A DNA stretch of 32,972 bases from IMG/VR virus record IMGVR_UViG_3300038701_001854, positions 1 through 32,972 of that record. One strand, written 5' to 3'. Below are positions 4,170 to 29,350 of this stretch, one piece after another. How positions within the stretch are numbered: position 1 is the first letter of the stretch; each line of letters begins with the position of its first letter. Below the pieces are notes generated by a model. That model had not been told where the DNA came from, searched no databases, and worked only from the letters and a program-made list of their open reading frames with translations. The stretch is from a virus. The position numbers were made by a program, and so were the translations under genes.

Positions 4170-4982
4170 ATGTCAGATAAGGAATTTGAACCCGTTGATC
4201 TTGGTAAAGTATTATCAGACGACGAACCACACATTGATGTGAAAGAGCAAACGCCAATTGAGAATCCAGTGGAACAGGTAGCGGAAACAGCCGCCCTTGA
4301 AGCCCCACAGGATGCGCCGACAGAGCCGGAAACGGTTCAGCCGGAGCCACAGCCCGCAGACGATGCGGGTAAGCCGTGGACGTATCATATGGCAATGGAT
4401 GAAAAGGCAAAGCGAAAGCAGTTTGAGGATGAAAACCGCCAATTACAGGCGAGGCTTCAAGCTCTTGAGTATGACCAACGGCAGCGACAGGCTCAAAAGC
4501 CAGTTGAGGCTCCCGATGTTCTTGTTGATCCAAACGGATACACACAACACATTCAAGGTCAAATTGTTCAGCAATTCAGTCCGGTTGTTCAACAGCTACA
4601 AAGGCAGGTTGCAGAGATGCAGCACACGCCTGATGTGGTTAAGGACGCAGAGGCATGGATGAACACTCTTGCTCCTCATCAAAGGGGCGCTCTTATTCAG
4701 CAATGCAACGCGACAGGCAATCCTTACAGTGAGCTTGTTAGTGTTTTCCGACGAGATGAGGCGGCACAAGCCTTAACTGACCCGGCGCAACTGGAAGCCT
4801 TTAAAGCTTGGCAAGCAGAGCAGGTGAAACAGCCCTCTCAACCCGCGCCAAGCGCACAGACACAACCTTCAACACAAACACCTCAATTCATGCCCTCAGT
4901 AGCGGGCAAACCTAGTGTGACCTCCCGGTCTGGCCCGACATGGGCAGGCCCTCAACCATTGGAGGCCATACTTCCCGAATAA
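4170..4982 (+). CDS. Candidate scaffolding protein
   Basis: A 270-residue acidic, Gln/Pro/Glu-rich protein between portal and major capsid, where podoviruses encode the scaffold. Residues 1-75 are low-complexity and acidic. Residues about 80-150 (KRKQFEDENRQLQARLQALE onward) read as a coiled coil, and the tail is Gln/Pro/Thr-rich. Scaffolds direct procapsid assembly and then leave. I prefer the ATG at 4170 over the upstream in-frame GTG at 4158 because GAAGG lies 5 bases before 4170. Identification rests on position and composition, as scaffolds diverge fast. Confidence 0.75.
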   Translation: MSDKEFEPVDLGKVLSDDEPHIDVKEQTPIENPVEQVAETAALEAPQDAPTEPETVQPEPQPADDAGKPWTYHMAMDEKAKRKQFEDENRQLQARLQALEYDQRQRQAQKPVEAPDVLVDPNGYTQHIQGQIVQQFSPVVQQLQRQVAEMQHTPDVVKDAEAWMNTLAPHQRGALIQQCNATGNPYSELVSVFRRDEAAQALTDPAQLEAFKAWQAEQVKQPSQPAPSAQTQPSTQTPQFMPSVAGKPSVTSRSGPTWAGPQPLEAILPE

Positions 4983-11360: not shown

Positions 11361-13310
11361 ATGAGTGACCCTCGCGCCAGACTCGACGAGTTGCGCAAAA
11401 GAAAACGCCTTGAGGAATTGCGCGCGAAAGCTGGGAATCAGCCTACCCGCGTCATGGATGGTGCGGGCGATGCGACAACAAACGCTGGCTTTTTTGGGGC
11501 TATTCCTGTTGTTGGGGCGCCCCTTCAGAACATGATGCAAGGGGCCTCTAGTGAACGGCGCGGACAGGTGCTTTCAGGTATGGTTGGCGCTGCAAATGCA
11601 GCTTCATTAGGCACTGTAGATGACATTGCCGGCGCTATATCACCTGAAGCTGGTCAAGGCGCTGATTTGATGAAGCAATACGCTCGTGAGGAAAACCCAA
11701 AATCAACGTTTGCGGGAGAGGTTACGGGTGGACTTATGACGGGTGGCGCGGGCTTGCAGAAGGTTGCCGGCAGTAAAGCGCTAGGCGCTGCGGCTACAGG
11801 CGCTGCATATGGAGCAGCTTACGGCGCGGGGGAGGCGGAAGGTGGTCTAAAAGAGCGCGCTACAGGTGCGGCTTATGGCGGCGCTTTCGGCGCGGCTGGC
11901 GGCTTCCTTATCCAAAAAGCAGGGCAGGGATTAAAACAACTCATTACGCAGCGTAATTTCCGCGTTAACGGCGAACTCACAGACGAAGCGCGTCAACTCA
12001 TTCAGCAGTACGGAATAGATCCTAACGATATTCCTCCGAATGAACTTGACCAAATGGAGGCTTACTTTCGTCAAGGGAATGATGCACAACAGGCGGCGTT
12101 CTTGAATGATGTAAGCCAATTACCTCAAGAGATACCGTTAACCCGTGCAAATATCACGAGAGATGTCGATGACGCGCTTTTAGAAAGCCGAGCAGCAAAA
12201 GGTAACTTTGGGGGCGATGCACAGGTTGCAATGCAGGGTTTCCGGGGTGTTCAGGATGACGCCCTTAAGGCGAACGCTGAGACGCTTCAGGGCGGTGCGG
12301 TGTCAGCCTATGGTGAAGGTGCTGAGGGTGTCATACGGCGCGTTCAGGGCGAATCTGAGGCGCTTAAAGGGCAGGCAAAGAGTTTGCGGGCCAAGGCTAA
12401 GAACGGGAATGCATTTGTAAGCCCCGAAAGTGCAAAAGCGCTCAAAGGCACATTTGAAAACATTCTTGAGGACGAAGGGTATATTCGAGGATCAACATCA
12501 CTTCCCAAAGTTTCCGGTGTGTTGGATGATTTAAACCTTTTGGCTGAAAAGTTTCCTGAAGGGGTTCCTGTCAATGCGCTGGCTCAATGGAGGCGCAAAG
12601 TCAGCAATCTATCCAAGGGTGTGCCAGATGGCGAGAAGAACATGCTCGGCAAGCTGTCTAGGTCATTCAATGAGGAGATGGTTAAGGCTATCGACAACTC
12701 AATGGTTCAGGGTGATGAAGAGGCCATTAAGCAATGGCGCAAGTCAACAGAATTGTTTGCAGAATGGTTTAGAACTTACCAAGGTAAGAGGGGCGCTAAA
12801 AAGATTGTCGCTGAGATGGTAAATGATGACCTGACAGCAGAGGCGGCTAGTAACAAAATTATTGGTACAGGCAAGCAAAACGCGGGTAAGATTGTTGCGG
12901 AGATGAAAGAGTTTTTAGGCGCTGATAGCCCTGAATTTCAAGACCTTCGTAAGGAAGCAGCCTTTCGCTTGATGGGGCAGCGCCCGGGTGAGAGGTTTAG
13001 TGGTCAGAAATTTTACACTAGCCTTGAAAAAGAGCTAACCAAAAACCCGTCCTATATGAGAGAGCTATTTACGGCTGATGAAATAGCAAATATGCGTCGT
13101 TTTGCCAGAGTCGCTAAGCGTATCACAACCTCGCCCGATGGGTCACAGTCAAGCGCTCGAACGGCTGAAGTGTTAAGTAATATGCTTAAGGGTTCAGCGC
13201 TTCAAAAAATCCCTGTTGTTCGCAATCTTCCGCTTGTTAAGGAAATCGGAGAGATACGCGCAAGGCGGCAGGGTGCGAAGAAGGTTCGCAAGGCAATTAC
13301 TCAAAATTAA
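11361..13310 (+). CDS. Large ejection (DNA transfer) protein, P22 gp16 position
   Basis: A 649-residue protein, close to P22 gp16 (609). A basic coiled N-terminus (DPRARLDELRKRKRLEELRA) precedes a Gly/Ala-rich stretch at about residues 125-185 (GAAATGAAYGAAYGAGEAEG) that resembles membrane-active or glycine-zipper segments. The rest is helical. AGGAGG at 11350-11355 sits 5 bases before the ATG at 11361, so I choose that over the in-frame GTG at 11355. Such proteins are ejected into the host and form part of the trans-envelope channel. Confidence 0.78.
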   Translation: MSDPRARLDELRKRKRLEELRAKAGNQPTRVMDGAGDATTNAGFFGAIPVVGAPLQNMMQGASSERRGQVLSGMVGAANAASLGTVDDIAGAISPEAGQGADLMKQYAREENPKSTFAGEVTGGLMTGGAGLQKVAGSKALGAAATGAAYGAAYGAGEAEGGLKERATGAAYGGAFGAAGGFLIQKAGQGLKQLITQRNFRVNGELTDEARQLIQQYGIDPNDIPPNELDQMEAYFRQGNDAQQAAFLNDVSQLPQEIPLTRANITRDVDDALLESRAAKGNFGGDAQVAMQGFRGVQDDALKANAETLQGGAVSAYGEGAEGVIRRVQGESEALKGQAKSLRAKAKNGNAFVSPESAKALKGTFENILEDEGYIRGSTSLPKVSGVLDDLNLLAEKFPEGVPVNALAQWRRKVSNLSKGVPDGEKNMLGKLSRSFNEEMVKAIDNSMVQGDEEAIKQWRKSTELFAEWFRTYQGKRGAKKIVAEMVNDDLTAEAASNKIIGTGKQNAGKIVAEMKEFLGADSPEFQDLRKEAAFRLMGQRPGERFSGQKFYTSLEKELTKNPSYMRELFTADEIANMRRFARVAKRITTSPDGSQSSARTAEVLSNMLKGSALQKIPVVRNLPLVKEIGEIRARRQGAKKVRKAITQN

Positions 13311-22689: not shown

Positions 22690-23121
22690 CTAAAACGGAA
22701 ATTCTGAATCGTCGAAGCCCTCACGCGGATCCTCTTGCCTTGGTTCATTACGTGAATTGTTAGAGGGCTGGCGACTGTCGAGTAGAACCAACTCACCACG
22801 ATAGCGCTGTAGAACAATCTCTGTCGTGTAGCGGTCATTCCCATCCCGATCTTGCCAATTACGAGTTTGCAACTGGCCTTCAATGTAAAGCTTTGCACCT
22901 TTATCAATGTAATTTTCAACAACCTTGATTAGGTTCTCGTTGTAAATTGCAATATTGTGCCATTCGGTCTTATCGCGCTTTTCGCCAGACTGTTTATCTC
23001 GCCATGTTTCAGATGTGGCTAAGGAGAAGTTGCACACCTTCCCGCCATTATTGAACGTGCGGGTTTCTGGTTCTTTCCCCACGTTTCCTACAAGAATTAC
23101 CTTATTTACCGATCCAGCCAT
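22690..23121 (-). CDS. ssb: Single-stranded DNA-binding protein
   Basis: A 143-residue SSB. The OB fold begins MAGSVNKVILVGNVGKEPET and includes FSLATSETWRDK, KTEWHNIAIYNENL, YIDKGAKLYIEGQLQTRNWQ and TTEIVLQRYRGELVLLD. A disordered linker follows and the tail ends DDSEFPF, the acidic tip that recruits partner proteins. It lies between the upstream coiled-coil gene and NinB. The start codon overlaps the upstream stop within a conserved junction (GAGGTCGCATAATG). Confidence 0.97.
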   Translation of the reverse strand: MAGSVNKVILVGNVGKEPETRTFNNGGKVCNFSLATSETWRDKQSGEKRDKTEWHNIAIYNENLIKVVENYIDKGAKLYIEGQLQTRNWQDRDGNDRYTTEIVLQRYRGELVLLDSRQPSNNSRNEPRQEDPREGFDDSEFPF

Positions 23122-23813
23122 TATGCGACCTCTTTTCTTTCTTTGAATGCGACACCTGGTATTTTTTCAGACTTGGTTTTATCTGAGCGCATAACTTGCT
23201 CAGCTAAGTTCACGATCAGGTCAGTCATTTTTGGGTGGTCAGCAAAATATATTGCAGCCATTTTTACATCGATGACCTCCGCATCCCAATATGATCGCAA
23301 CGAAGCTGTGCGAGCGGCACCTGTTGCGGAGCCTACACGCTTTGCGTTTTCTGCTTTTGCGACTGCAAGTTTTAAATCGGACTCAGCCACCTTAGAACGC
23401 TCTTCAGCAAAATCCCCAAACGCACTATCATCTTTAAGTAACTCAGCTTCGCGAGCCTTACGTTTCGCTTCTTCACGCGCCCTACGCTCCTCCTCAGCAG
23501 CAATACGCGCTTGCTCTCGTAGGTACGGCGTGAGGATGGCTTTAGCGCTATTTACACAGTCGCTAATTGCTGTTGTTATAGACTTGAAGCGACTGTCAAC
23601 ATCGCGTCCGCCATCAAGAAATGGCTGCTTAATGGCCTTTCTGTCTGCATCAGCAGATTTTGACAACTTACGGGCCTTACTCATAAAGTCATTAATTCGC
23701 GCCGCAATAGTTTCATTTACGTCTACGCCAGAGAACTGCAAAAGCTCCTCTTGTAACGCCTCCAAGTCTACATTGTACTCAGCGGCGTCTCTTGGGCCAT
23801 TATTGCTAATCAT
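23121..23813 (-). CDS. Coiled-coil protein between ERF and SSB
   Basis: A 230-residue helical protein. The middle is a charged coiled coil (about 105-155; REQARIAAEEERRAREEAKR), followed by TGAARTASLRSYWDAEVID and a C-terminal domain ending VAFKERKEVA. This layout is common for a protein encoded next to ERF recombinases in alphaproteobacterial phages; its role is probably in recombination but is not established. It overlaps the ERF gene by ATGA and the ssb gene by TAATG. Confidence 0.75.
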   Translation of the reverse strand: MISNNGPRDAAEYNVDLEALQEELLQFSGVDVNETIAARINDFMSKARKLSKSADADRKAIKQPFLDGGRDVDSRFKSITTAISDCVNSAKAILTPYLREQARIAAEEERRAREEAKRKAREAELLKDDSAFGDFAEERSKVAESDLKLAVAKAENAKRVGSATGAARTASLRSYWDAEVIDVKMAAIYFADHPKMTDLIVNLAEQVMRSDKTKSEKIPGVAFKERKEVA

Positions 23814-24538
23814 GCTGCTTCTCCTGTGATAGCGTTTAGAGCAGCGATTTTCGCATCAGCTCCACGCTGTTTAATGCTGTCCTGCCAATCAGCTGGCAGT
23901 TCTTTGATTTTGTGCTTAAAGTCACCGCTTTCCGCGAGAATTGTAAGGGCGTCTAAGTCTTTGTCACACGCATCGATTTCTTGCTGTAATTCGGTGTAGA
24001 GTGCGCGCGTTGCAGGGTTTTTACTTGCGCCAGCCTTGGCGGGTATCCGACCTCCGTCACTCACAACACCGTCATCTGTGCTTTGAAAGTCAGGATCGTC
24101 CTTGTCACCTGTTGGAATTTGAAACAGCGCCCTCATATACTGCTTTAAGGCATAGCTTTGAGCCCCGCCTGAAGCCTGAGCACCAGAACGCATGACCTCA
24201 ACGGACTTCCTAACGGGTGGCATGGACTGGCCGCTTGTATGGTAAAGCGTTATTTCAAAAATAAACCGCAGCCATGAACTTTCACCATACTTACTCTTTT
24301 TCGTAAATTCCTGTATTTCAACCTCTTGCGGGGGAGGAATAATCAAACCGTTTTCGGCGCATATCGAGTTAGATACTTCGAGAAAGTCATCTATAGACGC
24401 AAAGTCGTATTTATCGTGCTTGTTTTCATTGGTTTTAGCTATCTTCTTAACTGCCTTCATTGCAGCGTTTATTGCAGGTAAAATCTTGTCGAGACGCACA
24501 AAAGGCACATCACTTTCTTTCTTTATTACTTGTGTCAC
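23810..24538 (-). CDS. erf: ERF-family single-strand annealing recombinase
   Basis: A 242-residue protein. The N-terminal ERF domain is visible in VRLDKILPAINAAMKAVKKI, DKYDFASIDDFLEVSNSICA, and WLRFIFEITLYHTSGQSMPP, followed by GGAQSYALKQYMRALFQIPT, the conserved ERF ending. ERF proteins anneal complementary single strands for phage recombination and circularisation. The start is GTG at 24538 with GGAG 7 bases upstream. SSB and NinB lie just downstream. Confidence 0.93.
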   Translation of the reverse strand: MTQVIKKESDVPFVRLDKILPAINAAMKAVKKIAKTNENKHDKYDFASIDDFLEVSNSICAENGLIIPPPQEVEIQEFTKKSKYGESSWLRFIFEITLYHTSGQSMPPVRKSVEVMRSGAQASGGAQSYALKQYMRALFQIPTGDKDDPDFQSTDDGVVSDGGRIPAKAGASKNPATRALYTELQQEIDACDKDLDALTILAESGDFKHKIKELPADWQDSIKQRGADAKIAALNAITGEAA

Positions 24539-24851: not shown

Positions 24852-25015
24852 GCTCTTTCCTTTCCGGCCACTGGCCCTAAGCGTTGTTGTGCGCGAGATA
24901 GGTTGCTCTCACGCTCTGCCCGTACCCATTTATCAGCTTGTTCACCTGTCAGAACACGGGCTATGGCTCCGCACTTGATGTGAGCGGGGAGGGTGTTGAT
25001 TTGCGATAAGGTCAT
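24848..25015 (-). CDS. 55-residue early protein
   Basis: ATG at 25015 (TAATG with the upstream stop) to TGA at 24848. The product starts MTLSQINTLPAHIKCGAIAR and continues as a charged helix (GEQADKWVRAERESNLSRAQ). It is bracketed by translational overlaps on both sides, which supports it strongly despite its size. Function unknown. Confidence 0.68.
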   Translation of the reverse strand: MTLSQINTLPAHIKCGAIARVLTGEQADKWVRAERESNLSRAQQRLGPVAGKERA

Positions 25016-25356
25016 TAATCTGCGACCTGCCGCGCCTGCTGTGTGAACGGGTCGAACTCACGAGCTATTCTAAACTCATACACACCCGGCTCAAAATCAT
25101 GCCGATCGTGCGGAGTTTGCGCATCCTGAACCAATCCGTTTGCCTCATCAAGAATGGCATAGAAGACATCCAGGCCGGAACGCGGTTGCGTCTCTGCCTT
25201 GAACACCTCAACAGGTCTCTCAAGGACATGATGGTTACCTTGCTTACTGTGTGAGATGATGGATTGCCCCTTGACATTGACGTCCTTGTGAACCTCAACA
25301 TCCTGAGGCATTTTTTCGATTTTGCGAATGAAGATTTCGCCTTGTGCTACGGGCAT
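25015..25356 (-). CDS. Companion protein of the repeat-gene block
   Basis: A 113-residue beta-rich protein. The order MPVAQGEIFIRKIEKMPQ, SKQGNHHVLERPVEVFKAET, RHDFEPGVYEFRIAREFDPF matches a small unnamed family that I have seen beside DUF6745-like genes in phage and bacterial genomes. AGGAG sits 6 bases before the ATG. It may act with the repeat protein encoded just upstream. Confidence 0.75.
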   Translation of the reverse strand: MPVAQGEIFIRKIEKMPQDVEVHKDVNVKGQSIISHSKQGNHHVLERPVEVFKAETQPRSGLDVFYAILDEANGLVQDAQTPHDRHDFEPGVYEFRIAREFDPFTQQARQVAD

Positions 25357-25365
25357 TTTATTCTC

Positions 25366-26523
25366 CTAGGTGCGTAGTGATGGATAGTGAAATTCGGTCG
25401 GAGCAAGTCCGACACGCCATGCTTGAGCATGTTTGACGGTCTTGATTTGATTGTTGGTTATTTCGCAAACGGGCGGAACAGCTTCCACTATGGTTCCGTT
25501 TCTTGGACACTCAGCCTTGAGGTATATTCCCGGATCAGGCAGGCCATCGAGCCAGACTCGAAGCAATTCGCCCTTTTGTGGGTCAGGATCGCTGTCAATG
25601 ACTTCGTGCTGAAGTTTGTCGAGCATATGGGCCATGCCTAAAATACCAATTCCAGCCGCGCGCTGTTCGGTGCTTTCGACTCTCAACACATCTTCTGGAG
25701 TTACAGTATCGGGCGACAGTATCCATTGATCTGGAACCCGCACCCCGTGATGAGCGCAGACCGTATATCCGTCACTCCATTCCAATGCTGCGCGCCCCTC
25801 ACCATGTAATCTAAGTTCTTCATCAAAACCAATGTAGCGCGGCCTGTCAGACACAATAGCAACATCTGAATAAAGAAAAGCAACGCCGCACTCACGCGAG
25901 TAGGTCAGATACGCATCAAGCCAGGCATTTTGCCTGTCAGTTAGCTCACACCCCACATGACGCCCAAAGCTATAATATGCCAGCCAATGGCCGTCAAGAC
26001 CGGCGCCAAACGCAAGGCCATCAAACTTTTTTAGCTGATCCCAGAGCTGATCCCAGAGCTGAGTCCCAAGCTGAGCCCCAAGCTGAGCCCAGAGCTGATC
26101 CCTGAGCTGATCCCAGAGCTGATCCCTGAGCTGAGTCCTGAGCTGATCCCCGAGCTGAGCCCTGAGCTGAGTCCCAAGCTGATCCCAGAGCTGATCCCAG
26201 AGCTGATCCCTGAGCTGATCCCAGAGCTGATCCCAGAGCTGAGTCCCAAGCTGAGTCCCAAGCTGATCCCCGAGCTGAGCCCTGAGCTGAGCCCCCTTGT
26301 CCAAACTTAGAAAACTTCGCATTAACTGCGCTTGCATCGGAGATTGAGCGAATAACACTAAACGTGGTGAAGGAAGGTCAACAGAATTGTAAAGAGCTAT
26401 CACAGATTCCCTTGCTTTTGCCTCATCTATTGTATCTGTTCGTAAAGCCTCTGAACGAAAACGCTCACGCCAAACCGGAATAAGGGCCTCTTGCTCTGCG
26501 GTCAGTTTTGTAATCTTGGACAT
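25366..26523 (-). CDS. QLxx tetrapeptide-repeat protein with DUF6745-like domain
   Basis: A 385-residue protein. Residues 1-78 form a helical N-terminus. Residues 79-166 consist of 22 tandem tetrads QLxx (QLWD, QLRD, QLGT, QLGD). Residues 167-385 are a globular domain (FDGLAFGAGLDGHWLAYYSF, DRPRYIGFDEELRLHGEGRA, DGYTVCAHHGVRVPDQWI) resembling DUF6745. The repeat would form a long amphipathic helix or coiled coil with Leu every fourth residue. Its ATG lies in the conserved GAGGTCGCGTAATG junction. No function is established. Confidence 0.8.
   Translation of the reverse strand: MSKITKLTAEQEALIPVWRERFRSEALRTDTIDEAKARESVIALYNSVDLPSPRLVLFAQSPMQAQLMRSFLSLDKGAQLRAQLGDQLGTQLGTQLWDQLWDQLRDQLWDQLWDQLGTQLRAQLGDQLRTQLRDQLWDQLRDQLWAQLGAQLGTQLWDQLWDQLKKFDGLAFGAGLDGHWLAYYSFGRHVGCELTDRQNAWLDAYLTYSRECGVAFLYSDVAIVSDRPRYIGFDEELRLHGEGRAALEWSDGYTVCAHHGVRVPDQWILSPDTVTPEDVLRVESTEQRAAGIGILGMAHMLDKLQHEVIDSDPDPQKGELLRVWLDGLPDPGIYLKAECPRNGTIVEAVPPVCEITNNQIKTVKHAQAWRVGLAPTEFHYPSLRT
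26026..26289 (-). repeat. 22 tandem 12-bp repeats encoding QLxx
   Basis: The 12-base unit, CAGCTC or CAGCTT followed by two variable codons, is repeated 22 times without gaps inside the preceding gene. Many units are identical at the DNA level, so unequal recombination or slippage can change copy number in steps of four residues without losing frame. Confidence 0.9.
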
Positions 26524-27314
26524 TACGCGACCTCCCGCCCATTAGGAACAAGCCACTCATTAACCCACTCAAGAGCCAGCTTTGCCGCATAACCCCCGCC
26601 AGTGTCATCCGTGGGTTTATCTCCTTTTGATATCATCATGAACCAGCGCTCAGACGGGTTGTTACTGTTTTTCGGCAGAGTAACAACGTCCACACCTCGT
26701 ATATTGGCGATAGTGCCGATAAGACATGCGCATTCACCAGAATACACTGATCCATTGACGCGCCCTTCACGCAAAGCCTTTGCGACTCCAGAAGCCTCCT
26801 TTGGATTTTCTGTTAACGTCATCCATAAGCAAGATTTGAATGCGCGAAGGTCGGCACCGCGAAGGTCGGCACCGCTAAGGTCGGCATCGCGAAGGTCGGC
26901 ACCGCTAAGGTTGGCACCGCTAAGGTCGGCACCGCGAAGGTCGGCACCGCTAAGGTTGGCGCCGCTAAGGTTGGCACCGCTAAGGTTGGCACCGCTAAGG
27001 TTGGCATAGCTAAGGTAGGCACCGCGAAGGTAGGCACCGCTAAGGTTGGCACCGCTAAGGTTGGCACCGCTAAGGTCGGCACCGCTAAGGTTGGCGCCGC
27101 TAAGGTTGGCACCGCGAAGGTTGGCATAGCTAAGGTCGGCACCGCGAAGGTCGGCACCGCGAAGGTCGGCACCGCTAAGGTCGGCATCGTTTTTTAACGC
27201 CCACCTTACAGCCAGCCCAAGCTTTACTGAATGGCTGGCAGATTCATTACAATCTATTTCGGCTGTGAATTTAACCTCACCTGACCACCTTGATTTAACT
27301 TCAAACTTTAACAT
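26523..27314 (-). CDS. Pentapeptide-repeat protein with C-terminal domain
   Basis: A 263-residue protein. Residues 1-43 are a small N-terminal domain. Residues 44-158 are 23 pentapeptides of the form A(D/N/Y)LxG, which should fold into a right-handed quadrilateral beta-helix of about six coils. Residues 159-263 form a separate domain ([40 protein letters not shown]). Pentapeptide proteins such as MfpA and Qnr mimic DNA and protect or inhibit gyrase; that role is only a possibility here. Both borders carry the conserved GAGGTCGCGTAATG junction. Confidence 0.88.
26841..27185 (-). repeat. 23 tandem 15-bp pentapeptide repeats
   Basis: Twenty-three in-frame 15-base units encode A(D/N)LSG or A(D/N)LRG. 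Identical units occur repeatedly, for example in the runs around 26930-27000 and 27040-27100, implying recent amplification. Confidence 0.9.
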
Positions 27315-28252
27315 TACGCGACCTCCACAAGCTTTCCGCCTTGTAATGTGTAATAGGTGTCAGGCCTCACTTTACCGCGCCTCTTGGCGATTCCTGCAAA
27401 CACATGAATGATTTCCATGTTATTACTGCGCTCAACTAAGCAAATAGCGCTACCCTCGCCAGCTTTAGCTTTTGCTTGATAGCCGGACGCTATCGCTATG
27501 CTGTGCTCGCCCCCTACACTGGCCGCAGACTGATCGCCTGTGTTGGTGGCCGCAGACCGATCGCCTGTGTTGGTGGCCGCAGACTGATCGCCTGTGTTGG
27601 TGGCCGCAGACTGATCGCCTGTGTTGGTGGCCGCAGACCAATGGCCTGTGTTGGTGGCCGCAGACTGATGGCCTGTGTTGGTGGCCGCAGACTGATGGCC
27701 TGTGTTGGTGGCCGCAGACTGATCGCCTGTGTTGGTGGCCGCAGACCGATCGCCTGTGTTGGTGGCCGCAGACTGATGGCCTGTGTTGGTGGCCGCAGAC
27801 CGATCGCCTGTGTTGGTGGCCGCAGACCGATCGCCTGTGTTGGTGGCCGCAGACCGATCGCCTGTGTTGGTGGCCGCAGACCGATCGCCTGTGTTGGACT
27901 CTGTCTTACTGTCGGCAATTTTAGACAAAATGTAATCAACGCCACGTTGAACAAGTTCAGGGATAGTCAACTCGGCTCTTATAGTGATCTCTGCTGACGC
28001 AAGCTTGGTGTCGTAACTGTGATTCTTAATGTCTCCACCCAACTCCACTAATGCGAAACGGCTACGGCCTGGCTCGTAATACGCCCAAACCTCAAACGGA
28101 TGCTCACAGGAATGGAAGCCGCTATGGCATGGGAGCACCCCCCCTTCATGCGTATAGGTTTTCCCAATCTCATATTGGTATCCGCGACACCGTAAGTTTT
28201 CATCAAAACCCTTGAAGGCAATAACGGGATTCTTTTCAGTCTTGCCAGCCAT
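27314..28252 (-). CDS. DUF7666-like protein with 14 nonapeptide repeats
   Basis: A 312-residue protein. Residues 8-112 ([40 protein letters not shown]) resemble the DUF7666 domain. Residues 120-245 are 14 exact-length repeats NTGxxSAAT. The next part ([20 protein letters not shown]) is similar to YadA-type head repeats, so the array probably forms a left-handed beta roll. The C-terminus ([18 protein letters not shown]) is a small cap. No signal peptide is present, so it should be cytoplasmic. Its ATG lies in the conserved junction. Confidence 0.82.
27518..27895 (-). repeat. 14 tandem 27-bp repeats encoding NTGxxSAAT
   Basis: Fourteen direct repeats of exactly 27 bases without spacers, nearly identical except at the two codons after Gly (DR, DQ, HQ, HW). 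Several adjacent units are identical. The absence of spacers excludes a CRISPR array. Confidence 0.92.
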
Positions 28253-28263
28253 TACGCGACCTC
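28250..28263 (-). repeat. Conserved gene-junction module, first copy
   Basis: GAGGTCGCGTAATG, read on the reverse strand, ends one gene (Glu-Val-Ala-stop), provides GAGG as ribosome-binding site and starts the next gene. Identical copies lie at 27312-27325 and 26521-26534, and a one-base variant lies at 23119-23132 before ssb. Confidence 0.85.
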
Positions 28264-28551
28264 TTGCCCATACATCGAGTTAGAGTGGCAGTCGTCAGAG
28301 TAGTCAGGCGAGCAATATGAAAGCCCGTTTTCTGCCATAAGATTTTCATCGTCAGTGTTGTAACGCCCGCAAGCCGTGCACTGTTGATACTCGTCGTTAT
28401 TCTCGATAGCTTGGAGTGCCTTAAGGGCGTCGTACATGACGGATTTGACGGATTGGTTCTTTGTGTGAAGCGCAATACGCTCTACTTCCTTGATAGCCGC
28501 TTGACGCGGTGTAAGCGGTGCGCCTGTTATTTTGTTAGTTTCGATTTTCAT
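28252..28551 (-). CDS. First leftward gene, small zinc-ribbon-like protein
   Basis: A 99-residue protein from ATG 28551, with GTGAG 6 bases upstream; in-frame ATGs at 28557 and 28596 are alternatives, the latter inside the operator. Residues 10-52 are helical (TPRQAAIKEVERIALHTKNQ). The C-terminal part has Cys58, Cys61, Cys80 and Cys88 (CTACGRYN, YCSPDYSDDC), a zinc-ribbon-like set. As first gene after the pL-like promoter it stands where lambda has N, but no Arg-rich motif is seen. It ends in the conserved junction. Confidence 0.72.
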   Translation of the reverse strand: MKIETNKITGAPLTPRQAAIKEVERIALHTKNQSVKSVMYDALKALQAIENNDEYQQCTACGRYNTDDENLMAENGLSYCSPDYSDDCHSNSMYGQEVA

Positions 28552-28578
28552 GTTCATCTCACTTGTGTTTGTGAGAGT

Positions 28579-28607
28579 GTGGTACAAAATGTACAATCAA
28601 TAGTCAA
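28579..28607 (-). promoter_or_regulatory. pL-like promoter of the leftward early operon
   Basis: On the reverse strand, -35 TTGACT (28602-28607) and -10 TACCAC (28579-28584) are 17 bases apart. An operator covers the spacer and -10, and a second lies directly upstream of the -35. Geometry equals that of the rightward promoter (operator starts 13 bases after the first T of TTGACT). The predicted start near 28572 leaves a leader of about 20 bases. The -10 itself is weak. Confidence 0.6.
28582..28594. promoter_or_regulatory. Left operator 1
   Basis: GTACAAAATGTAC, half-sites GTACA and TGTAC separated by three bases. It overlaps the -10 of the leftward promoter and is identical to left operator 2. 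Confidence 0.75.
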
Positions 28608-28660: not shown

Positions 28661-29344
28661 TTAAGGCTTTCTACGCCTCTTTATATAGCAGCCAATTACA
28701 AGTGCTGTGATCTGCACCTCATCAACAGGAGTGTCATCTGTTAAGTTTATAGGCGATTGCCATTCGGGATTGCTTGAGCGGGGCCATAGTTCCGCGCCTG
28801 ACTTTGTGAACACGAACTCCTTAACAGTAACCTCCCGCAAGTCGCCCTTCCTTCTCTCCACAATAACATGGTCGCCATGCTCTGGCATAATATCATCTGG
28901 GTGATATTCTATGTGTGCGCAATGCACGAATGAGCCGGAGGGATAGTGCATGTTCATTGAGTCACCCTTCACCTCAAGTGCGTACTGCTCATAATCCGAG
29001 TAATCAGGGTCTACAGCCATAGGAATTTCGCGCCCGCTAAAATCTGGCATGGCTTCGACAAACGATCCGGCCTGTACGCGCCCATGCACTGGTAAAGGCT
29101 GAAGGGGAACGGTTTTGCCTATACCTGATTTCTCACCTCGGCCAGTCTGTAGCCAGTCGATAGACACATTAAACGCTCTTGCGTAGGTTTCCAGCCTCGT
29201 TGCTGGAATGCCCCGAATGCCACCCTCATGGCTTCGGTAGGTGTTTATATTCCACCCAAAATCTCGCACCATGTCAACGACATTGTCGTAGCTAGAGTTA
29301 ATGCGAGCTTGCTTTAGTCGCTTGGCTATCTTCGAATCTATCAT
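28661..29344 (-). CDS. S24-type phage repressor
   Basis: A 227-residue repressor. Residues 1-66 form an XRE-type HTH (KRLKQARINSSYDNVVDMVR, then RAFNVSIDWLQTGRGEKSG). The C-terminal half is the LexA/CI-like S24 self-cleaving domain: cleavage site in VQAGSF (Ala92-Gly93), catalytic Ser129 in EVKGDSMNMHYPSG and Lys175 in REVTVKEFV. It would maintain lysogeny and be inactivated by RecA after DNA damage. I choose ATG 29344 over ATG 29350 because the predicted transcript starts there. No ribosome-binding site is present. Confidence 0.93.
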   Translation of the reverse strand: MIDSKIAKRLKQARINSSYDNVVDMVRDFGWNINTYRSHEGGIRGIPATRLETYARAFNVSIDWLQTGRGEKSGIGKTVPLQPLPVHGRVQAGSFVEAMPDFSGREIPMAVDPDYSDYEQYALEVKGDSMNMHYPSGSFVHCAHIEYHPDDIMPEHGDHVIVERRKGDLREVTVKEFVFTKSGAELWPRSSNPEWQSPINLTDDTPVDEVQITALVIGCYIKRRRKP

Positions 29345-29350
29345 GTGCAT

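Follow-up and report, generated by a model that had tools for sequence, protein, structure and literature searches.

Adjacent genes with three different in-frame repeat arrays in a viral contig, and the rewriting of such arrays among relatives of two of the genes

The window analysed here is the entire IMG/VR record IMGVR_UViG_3300038701_001854 (32,972 bases), which carries on its minus strand three adjacent genes, each with a different tandem in-frame repeat array. Both Tandem Repeats Finder (TRF) and the translations bear out the initial annotation on this point, with 22 units of 12 bp, 23 units of 15 bp and 14 units of 27 bp arranged as follows:

27314..28252, minus strand: gene 3 (P0003, 312 residues), DUF7666 N-terminal domain, array and C-terminal cap (PF24703, phrog_4433)
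27518..27895, minus strand: 27-bp array of 14 NTGxxSAAT units, from residue 120 of gene 3 (TRF, 14.0 copies, 96% match)
26523..27314, minus strand: gene 2 (P0002, 263 residues), N-terminal segment, pentapeptides and C-terminal domain (PF00805)
26841..27185, minus strand: 15-bp array of 23 pentapeptides, from residue 44 of gene 2 (TRF, 22.9 copies, 89% match)
25366..26523, minus strand: gene 1 (P0001, 385 residues), DUF6745-type with a tetrapeptide array (PF20530)
26026..26289, minus strand: 12-bp array of 22 QLxx units, from residue 79 of gene 1 (TRF, 21.8 copies, 86% match, 4% indels)

Many copies are identical, as had also been claimed, the units compared falling into 8 distinct forms among 21 in the 12-bp array, 9 among 22 in the 15-bp array and 4 among 13 in the 27-bp array. 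The residues that vary, hereafter letters, are W/R/G and then D/T/A in the 12-bp array, D/N/Y, S/R and G/Y/D in the 15-bp array, and D/H and then R/Q/W in the 27-bp array. TRF at a score of 50 reports no further tandem array in the window, and two or more arrays (period a multiple of three, at least four copies) occur in 0 of 80 Erf-centred phage loci (1,041 kb, from one closely related group); thus, three arrays lying side by side are not background.

Each gene belongs to a recognized family. P0003 is a member of DUF7666 (PF24703, E 7e-33, 113.4 bits against a cut-off of 27), and its match to phrog_4433 (E 2e-113) runs over residues 5-311 of 312 and thereby covers the full architecture of N-terminal domain, nine-residue array and C-terminal cap. 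It is like ES18 gp53 and phrog_4433 in full-length similarity (52%), in the type of nine-residue array, in the cap and in its place between the repressor/N region and erf; however, gp53 stands alone, whereas gene 3 is followed by two more array genes. P0001 is a member of DUF6745 (PF20530, E 9e-13, 48.4 bits against a cut-off of 27); its C-terminal domain as a query found no relative, and relatives were recovered only with a profile. Mycobacterium prophiGD102-1 gp38 has the same domain with the same QLxx array at the same site (relatives L098 and L100), but the identity in the domain is only about 27% and neither of the other families is seen beside it. P0002 is a member of the pentapeptide family PF00805 (E 5e-49, 163.8 bits against a cut-off of 20.2) and shares its array with the solved proteins All3740, Qnr and MfpA, from which it differs in its variable-letter array, in scores below the Qnr and MfpA cut-offs, and in the C-terminal domain of a phage-borne group, common to a Bordetella phage protein and 35 viral loci. 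Two observations on DUF7666 genes elsewhere may be recorded here: in Vibrio phage 1.185.O (L026) the array at 4366-4583 lies within a protein gene but is labelled in the public entry as CRISPR spacers, apparently in error, and a single 70-kb contig (IMGVR_UViG_2795385501_000005; L091 and L092) holds two DUF7666 gene copies with the same 19-letter array.

Variation within the arrays is concentrated in two or three designated residues per unit. All unit pairs within each array were compared codon by codon, the scaffold residues not being fixed by the pattern, in four sets: 23 ES18-like arrays (those with eight or more units out of 37), 11 other DUF7666-type genes (hand-picked, and including L163, whose N-domain is different), 23 pentapeptide open reading frames (ORFs) out of 36 from 35 loci and the window, 21 of which were used, and 8 tetrapeptide genes, including three closely related mycobacterial ones, with the 55 array loci of the viral-contig DUF6745 scan (see below) excluded. 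The variable codons hold 80%, 86%, 93% and 96%, respectively, of all within-array differences. Per unit pair, this amounts to 0.60-0.65 and 0.55-0.61 differences at the two variable codons of the DUF7666 arrays, 0.48, 0.38 and 0.45 at the three of the pentapeptide arrays, and 0.65 and 0.46 at the two of the tetrapeptide arrays, against at most 0.03 nonsynonymous differences outside the variable codons. The synonymous share of the differences, in the same order of sets, is 0.20, 0.09, 0.04 and 0.04, as compared to the 0.29, 0.27, 0.27 and 0.25 expected if single changes struck the consensus unit at random. In the ES18-like units the two variable residues are linked (mutual information 0.476 bits versus a maximum of 0.133 in 500 within-array shuffles), and the unit types are linked-pair letters such as NR, DW, YQ, DR and DC. 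Weak periodicities of the letters also appear across the 36 lags examined, namely at lags 4 and 12 in the pentapeptide arrays (z 2.8 and 2.9), at lag 4 in the tetrapeptide arrays (z 3.5), and at lags 7 and 10 in the nine-residue arrays (z 2.3 and 3.2).

In relatives of the DUF7666 and DUF6745 genes, unit number and order are rewritten between identical or near-identical flanks. These comparisons come from relatives of the gene families and not from the window virus itself. Since megablast finds no match to the ES18-type N-domain in 5,426 complete E. coli genomes, viral contigs and named phages were used: the ES18 set comprises 37 closed arrays out of 69 viral loci near ES18 gp53, with L064 (short), L089-L093 (more distant) and arrays that were cut or had no match left out, and some of its genes share one host genome (L035/L042, L033/L038, L056/L057). 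Copy number in this set spans 1 to 29 units and differs in 121 of the 132 pairs with at least 99% identical N-domains, and the 37 genes present 36 distinct letter strings. Thirteen genes with an identical 345-nucleotide N-domain have 13 strings of 2 to 26 units; six of these are also identical over the last 240 nucleotides and have six strings, of 9, 8, 8, 5, 15 and 9 units. L031 and L054 show 2 mismatches in 2,185 flank bases, yet have 14 and 5 units. The Pseudomonas phages YA3 and Flu_PA14_4, whose flanks match at 1,587 of 1,590 bases ahead of the array and 1,212 of 1,213 behind it, have 28 and 27 units in a different order. On the DUF6745 side, Mycobacterium phage prophiGD102-1 and contig L098 have identical flanks (849/849 and 702/702) around 46 and 19 units, and L100, with flanks five and four bases different from that group, has 62. 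The copy-number variability initially proposed for all three arrays thus holds for the DUF7666 and DUF6745 relatives; the pentapeptide comparison had no near-identical pair.

The block of three array genes is placed between a CI-like repressor gene and erf, among the following features:

28661..29350, minus strand: CI-like repressor, helix-turn-helix and S24 peptidase (domain and profile matches)
28252..28596, minus strand: first gene of the overlapping set, 114 residues called from TTG, with a CxxC motif by eye, ending in the GAGGTCGCGTAATG junction
26521..26534, minus strand: 14-base stop/start junction GAGGTCGCGTAATG, with exact copies at 27312-27325 and 28250-28263 (sequence match)
25015..25356, minus strand: partner gene, 113 residues, 9 bases past the DUF6745 stop (unnamed family)
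23810..24538, minus strand: Erf single-strand annealing protein (domain and profile matches)
23121..23813, minus strand: exonuclease (phrog_10477)
23119-23132, minus strand: one-mismatch copy of the GAGGTCGCGTAATG junction (sequence match)

All three array genes start in TAATG overlaps inside the identical 14-base junction, which has three exact copies and one with a single mismatch in the window, against 0.2 expected with up to two mismatches; this repetition hints at modular insertion of genes that would carry ready-made translational coupling with them. Downstream of the block, the 113-residue gene is followed by a 100-residue ORF, Erf and the exonuclease; with the window Erf as query no relative was found. 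The 28252-28596 product, with its CxxC...C pattern, gave nothing above cut-off in the Pfam and PHROG scans, and its gene occupies the place held by the N antiterminator in ES18. The closest phage records for the terminase (56%) and the capsid (58%) are the Pseudanabaena phages Pam1 and Pam5, and bases 1-24000 of the window have no megablast match among phage records. Pam1 has ERF and YqaJ genes between repressor and integrase. By TRF there is no comparable coding array in the stretches read of Pam1, Pam5 and Pan3, and Pan4 has only a DUF7666-type gene with 21 units, about 1.1 kb from its integrase; hence, the three-gene block looks like an accessory insertion. In ES18, gp53 comes after N and before cIII, kil and erf, and the DUF7666 gene of the Salmonella phages S107 and S135 likewise comes after N and before erf. 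Given this early-left position of the gp53 family, the three array genes are probably early-left genes with early expression; the initial proposal that they are made at the start of infection agrees with this match to the lambdoid arrangement.

The DUF6745 family differs among its members in where the array is found. The tetrapeptide array is inserted at one fixed site of the family, with none in the aligned members L101-L103, L105-L107, L109, L112 and L113 and up to 62 units in others. A profile scan of viral contigs, in which 79 of 80 loci were analysed, found at least four units inside the ORF in 55 of the 79, on QL, QV, SV, SL, NL, AV and GL scaffolds with mostly W/R/G/D/Y-type letters. 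In some phages the arrays sit instead in small separate genes beside the DUF6745 gene: free-standing Q[VIL]xx array genes accompany array-less DUF6745 genes in L101 (17 ORFs), L102 (4) and L106 (3), occur also in the L294/L295/L297/L303 group and in L300, and are absent from 203 background loci (1,927 kb). At 891-11597 of L101 (IMGVR_UViG_3300047548_000652, 156 kb), these small and partly overlapping ORFs surround the array-less gene, and most begin with MNSV... or MNSM... followed by QVxx tetrapeptides, as a large paralogous family.

The DUF6745 gene also comes with a conserved partner gene. With the partner at 25015-25356 as the seed, phmmer recovered 34 ORFs initially and 94 once iterated, and the family is present on the same strand as DUF6745 in 87 of 109 loci and in 0 of 203 control loci, where the 109 include repeats of one contig or genome (L098/L356, L099/L357, L121/L126) and the genome set of the control test holds further such repeats. 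In these 87 loci the partner lies within 100 nucleotides in 54 and within 500 in 83, downstream of DUF6745 in 48 and upstream in 39; of the 22 partner-less loci, 18 are cut within 500 nucleotides upstream of the domain. Other members of the partner family have no match in Pfam (0 of 4) or NCBIfam (0 of 3), and four match phrog_27831, whose function is not annotated. In cyanobacterial contigs the pair lies next to genes that appear, by eye, to be ordinary chromosomal ones. Conserved histidines in the DUF6745 module, likewise noted by eye, suggest a metal-binding barrel. Among the PADLOC models, PDC-S55 weakly matches P0001 (E 5.5e-4, residues 119-163, within the array), and none matches P0002, P0003 or the partner.

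That the three genes travel as one conserved unit, as first envisaged, was rejected. Each family was searched separately, and the TRF screen covered 298 related or control viral stretches (219 and 79), reaching 2.5 to 9 kb per side and not whole phages, with some contigs recurring across sets (e.g. L029/L168, L098/L356); all three array families occur together in 0 of these 298. Two of the three pair solely in L142, which has a pentapeptide and a DUF7666 array gene, and in L305, where a DUF7666-type array end (C-cap E 1.6e-14), ERF, YqaJ, a DUF6745 array gene and the partner lie within 4.6 kb. Among 398 Pseudomonadota genomes, PF20530 is found in 3 (one being the centre, chosen for having it) and PF24703 in 2, with no genome having both. 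Of the two outcomes that the initial annotation had named as speaking against its proposal, independent occurrence of the families was thus found, while invariant repeat numbers were not. Arrays may nevertheless attract each other somewhat, two or more being present in 6 of 35 pentapeptide loci versus 0 of the 80 Erf loci of one phage group, and the triple is so far unique among the stretches examined. In L145 and L163 a pentapeptide gene is accompanied by a 27-bp array in a different protein, and second arrays, some of them further tetra- or pentapeptide stretches, are also present in L006, L010, L011, L150, L153 and L154 and in L302, L320, L328, L336, L341, L342, L350, L351, L356, L357, L358, L361 and L363. 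The protein in L145 (8403-9146) has a nine-residue array of SATISxVxx units, lies 0.6 kb after the pentapeptide gene and belongs to no Pfam family. L136 has, at 12045-12932 and 3.8 kb from a P0002-type C-domain, a tetrapeptide array gene of AAWDAARA type with W/R and D/A variation, which is possibly a further letter-array scaffold.

We favor a reading of these genes, which we regard as about evenly poised between right and wrong, as accessory and probably early repeat proteins, whose arrays are rewritten by recombination and serve as changeable multivalent binding surfaces. Each gene encodes a scaffolded repeat protein whose units are nearly identical save for two or three designated, variable residues. 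The arrays would be rewritten in multi-unit blocks by unequal homologous recombination, possibly aided by the Erf annealing protein encoded close by, and selection would keep the letters diverse. Soon after infection or induction, the solenoids may act as multivalent and quickly changeable surfaces for host proteins, e.g. defense or regulatory factors, or, alternatively, may change to escape recognition by host proteins. The three families would be independent of each other and stacked in one operon by modular insertion. Since neither array length nor unit order is conserved, readout of a fixed target sequence is disfavored, and avidity or evasion favored.

Several points weigh against this reading. 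The synonymous deficit is modest in the largest set, the ES18-like one (0.20 versus 0.29), and the unit pairs are related by copying rather than independent, which makes all these figures descriptive and not a formal selection test. Variation is not universal: BR228a and BR208a show no difference in 5,840 bases and no array variation, S107 and S135 share the same letters, and L056 and L057 have the same array. Unit order is not conserved even in close relatives. Of 13 DUF6745 loci with no array or nearly none, ten also lack a free-standing array gene. AlphaFold confidence is low for both arrays modelled: P0003 (mean pLDDT, the predicted local distance difference test score, 57.5) has its array drawn as beta strands, and P0001 (mean 75.2, with the DUF6745 domain mostly at 81-93) as low-confidence helices. 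Foldseek with the predicted models returned nothing at E 0.001, VIA-align, run on P0001 only, reached a best Z of 3.6, and in profile searches against the PDB the sole match of P0003 was to Spt5 repeats (E 3e-8), with none for P0001; the readings given here do not draw on the folds. The putative role of Erf is read from the gene neighborhood, and the function, expression and target of all three proteins are putative. The foremost concern is assembly, since arrays that exceed the read length can collapse. Contigs often end in arrays, and 25 of the 79 DUF6745 ORFs run off the locus start; for most arrays the source is a viral contig whose read type is unknown, and some of the counts are bound to be wrong, so that no single count should be relied on. 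In the otherwise near-identical Acinetobacter phages fLi-Aba03 (L249) and fEg-Aba01 (L250), the former has ambiguous bases at variable positions and the latter an out-of-frame array, irregularities which may be mixed populations or assembly faults. A long-read study reports pentapeptide repeats to be 26 times as common in long reads as in assembled sets (PMC9238414), which is in line with loss of arrays on assembly. However, assembly collapse does not easily yield new letter orders between identical flanks.

Among the other explanations, neutral or selfish instability of the repeats, whereby in-frame repeats slip or recombine, any number is tolerated and the letters are relics, is unlikely but still a contender. 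It accords with the fact that any multiple of three keeps frame, with the range of 1 to 29 units among close relatives and with the existence of array-less DUF6745 genes. Nevertheless, it does not sit well with differences that are poor in synonymous changes and concentrated on the same codons across three unrelated scaffolds, with the recurrence of the letters YQ, DQ, NR and DR in phages of unrelated hosts, or with identical neighboring nine-residue units being rarer than in shuffles (lag 1 z -3.1), as single-unit slippage would give more of them. A mutational source of the letters, with a targeted hypermutation akin to that of diversity-generating retroelements writing the variable codons, would account for the focus on fixed codons and for the first variable codon of ES18-like units changing almost solely at its first base. 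Yet no reverse transcriptase was detected among the 20 window proteins scanned (some ORFs being outside the scan), and the linkage of residues as letters fits unit shuffling better than independent mutation; we consider this extremely improbable.

Other possibilities concern what the proteins do. Gene 2, a genuine pentapeptide protein with Qnr and MfpA among its solved relatives, might be a gyrase-directed DNA mimic or have another known pentapeptide function, with unrelated roles for the other two genes; but its scores against the curated NCBIfam models fall far below the cut-offs (Qnr 56.6 of 240 bits, MfpA 50.9 of 360), its charge is near neutral (30 acidic and 27 basic residues) with no large negative charge, and its C-domain is that of the phage-borne group, which together leave this proposal improbable. 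Comparably faint is the prospect that DUF7666 is an ADP-ribosyltransferase-like enzyme aimed by its array, as might be taken from the annotation 'putative ADP-ribosyltransferase' in the Acinetobacter phages fLi-Aba02, fLi-Aba03 and fEg-Aba01, which in the last also mentions similarity to a rifampin-modifying enzyme. The DUF7666 profile did not match Arr or KptA, but the positive control, the Arr-KptA pair, likewise gave no match, and the comparison thus carries no weight for or against. A role as virion or tail-fiber components, with the solenoids on the particle, draws on the weak resemblance of the NTGxxSAAT array to tail-fiber profiles (E 4e-5 and worse), but the genes adjoin the repressor and erf rather than the head and connector genes recognised at 0.8-8.1 kb, and the full-length match is to phrog_4433, which has no annotated function; we hold such a role to be very improbable.

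Beyond this locus, we tentatively posit a general and so far undescribed class of 'letter arrays', in which unrelated scaffolds of 4, 5 and 9 residues bear a small residue alphabet that would be reshuffled faster than neighboring bases mutate, changing the host contacts of early proteins. As part of the same doubtful proposal, DUF6745 and its partner would constitute a two-gene conflict module, also present in cyanobacterial and other bacterial contigs, with arrays in cis or in trans. TALE-type repeat proteins are alike in form, being likewise made of almost identical units that are told apart by a pair of residues passed on together; however, the units of letter arrays are of 4, 5 or 9 residues, no homology is claimed, and, since unit order is not conserved, a fixed sequence readout is unlikely for them. 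In the open PubMed Central literature searched, neither DUF7666 nor DUF6745 is named and no paper title describes such arrays. DUF6745 also gains a frequent, unnamed partner family. If the proposal is true, phages have a fast combinatorial variation in early proteins, beyond that of tail fibers, which tends to be hidden by short-read assemblies, and DUF7666, DUF6745 and a phage pentapeptide group, so far catalogued but unexplained, would come under one testable principle, for which the natural variants with identical flanks offer ready-made experiments on the effect of array length and letters.

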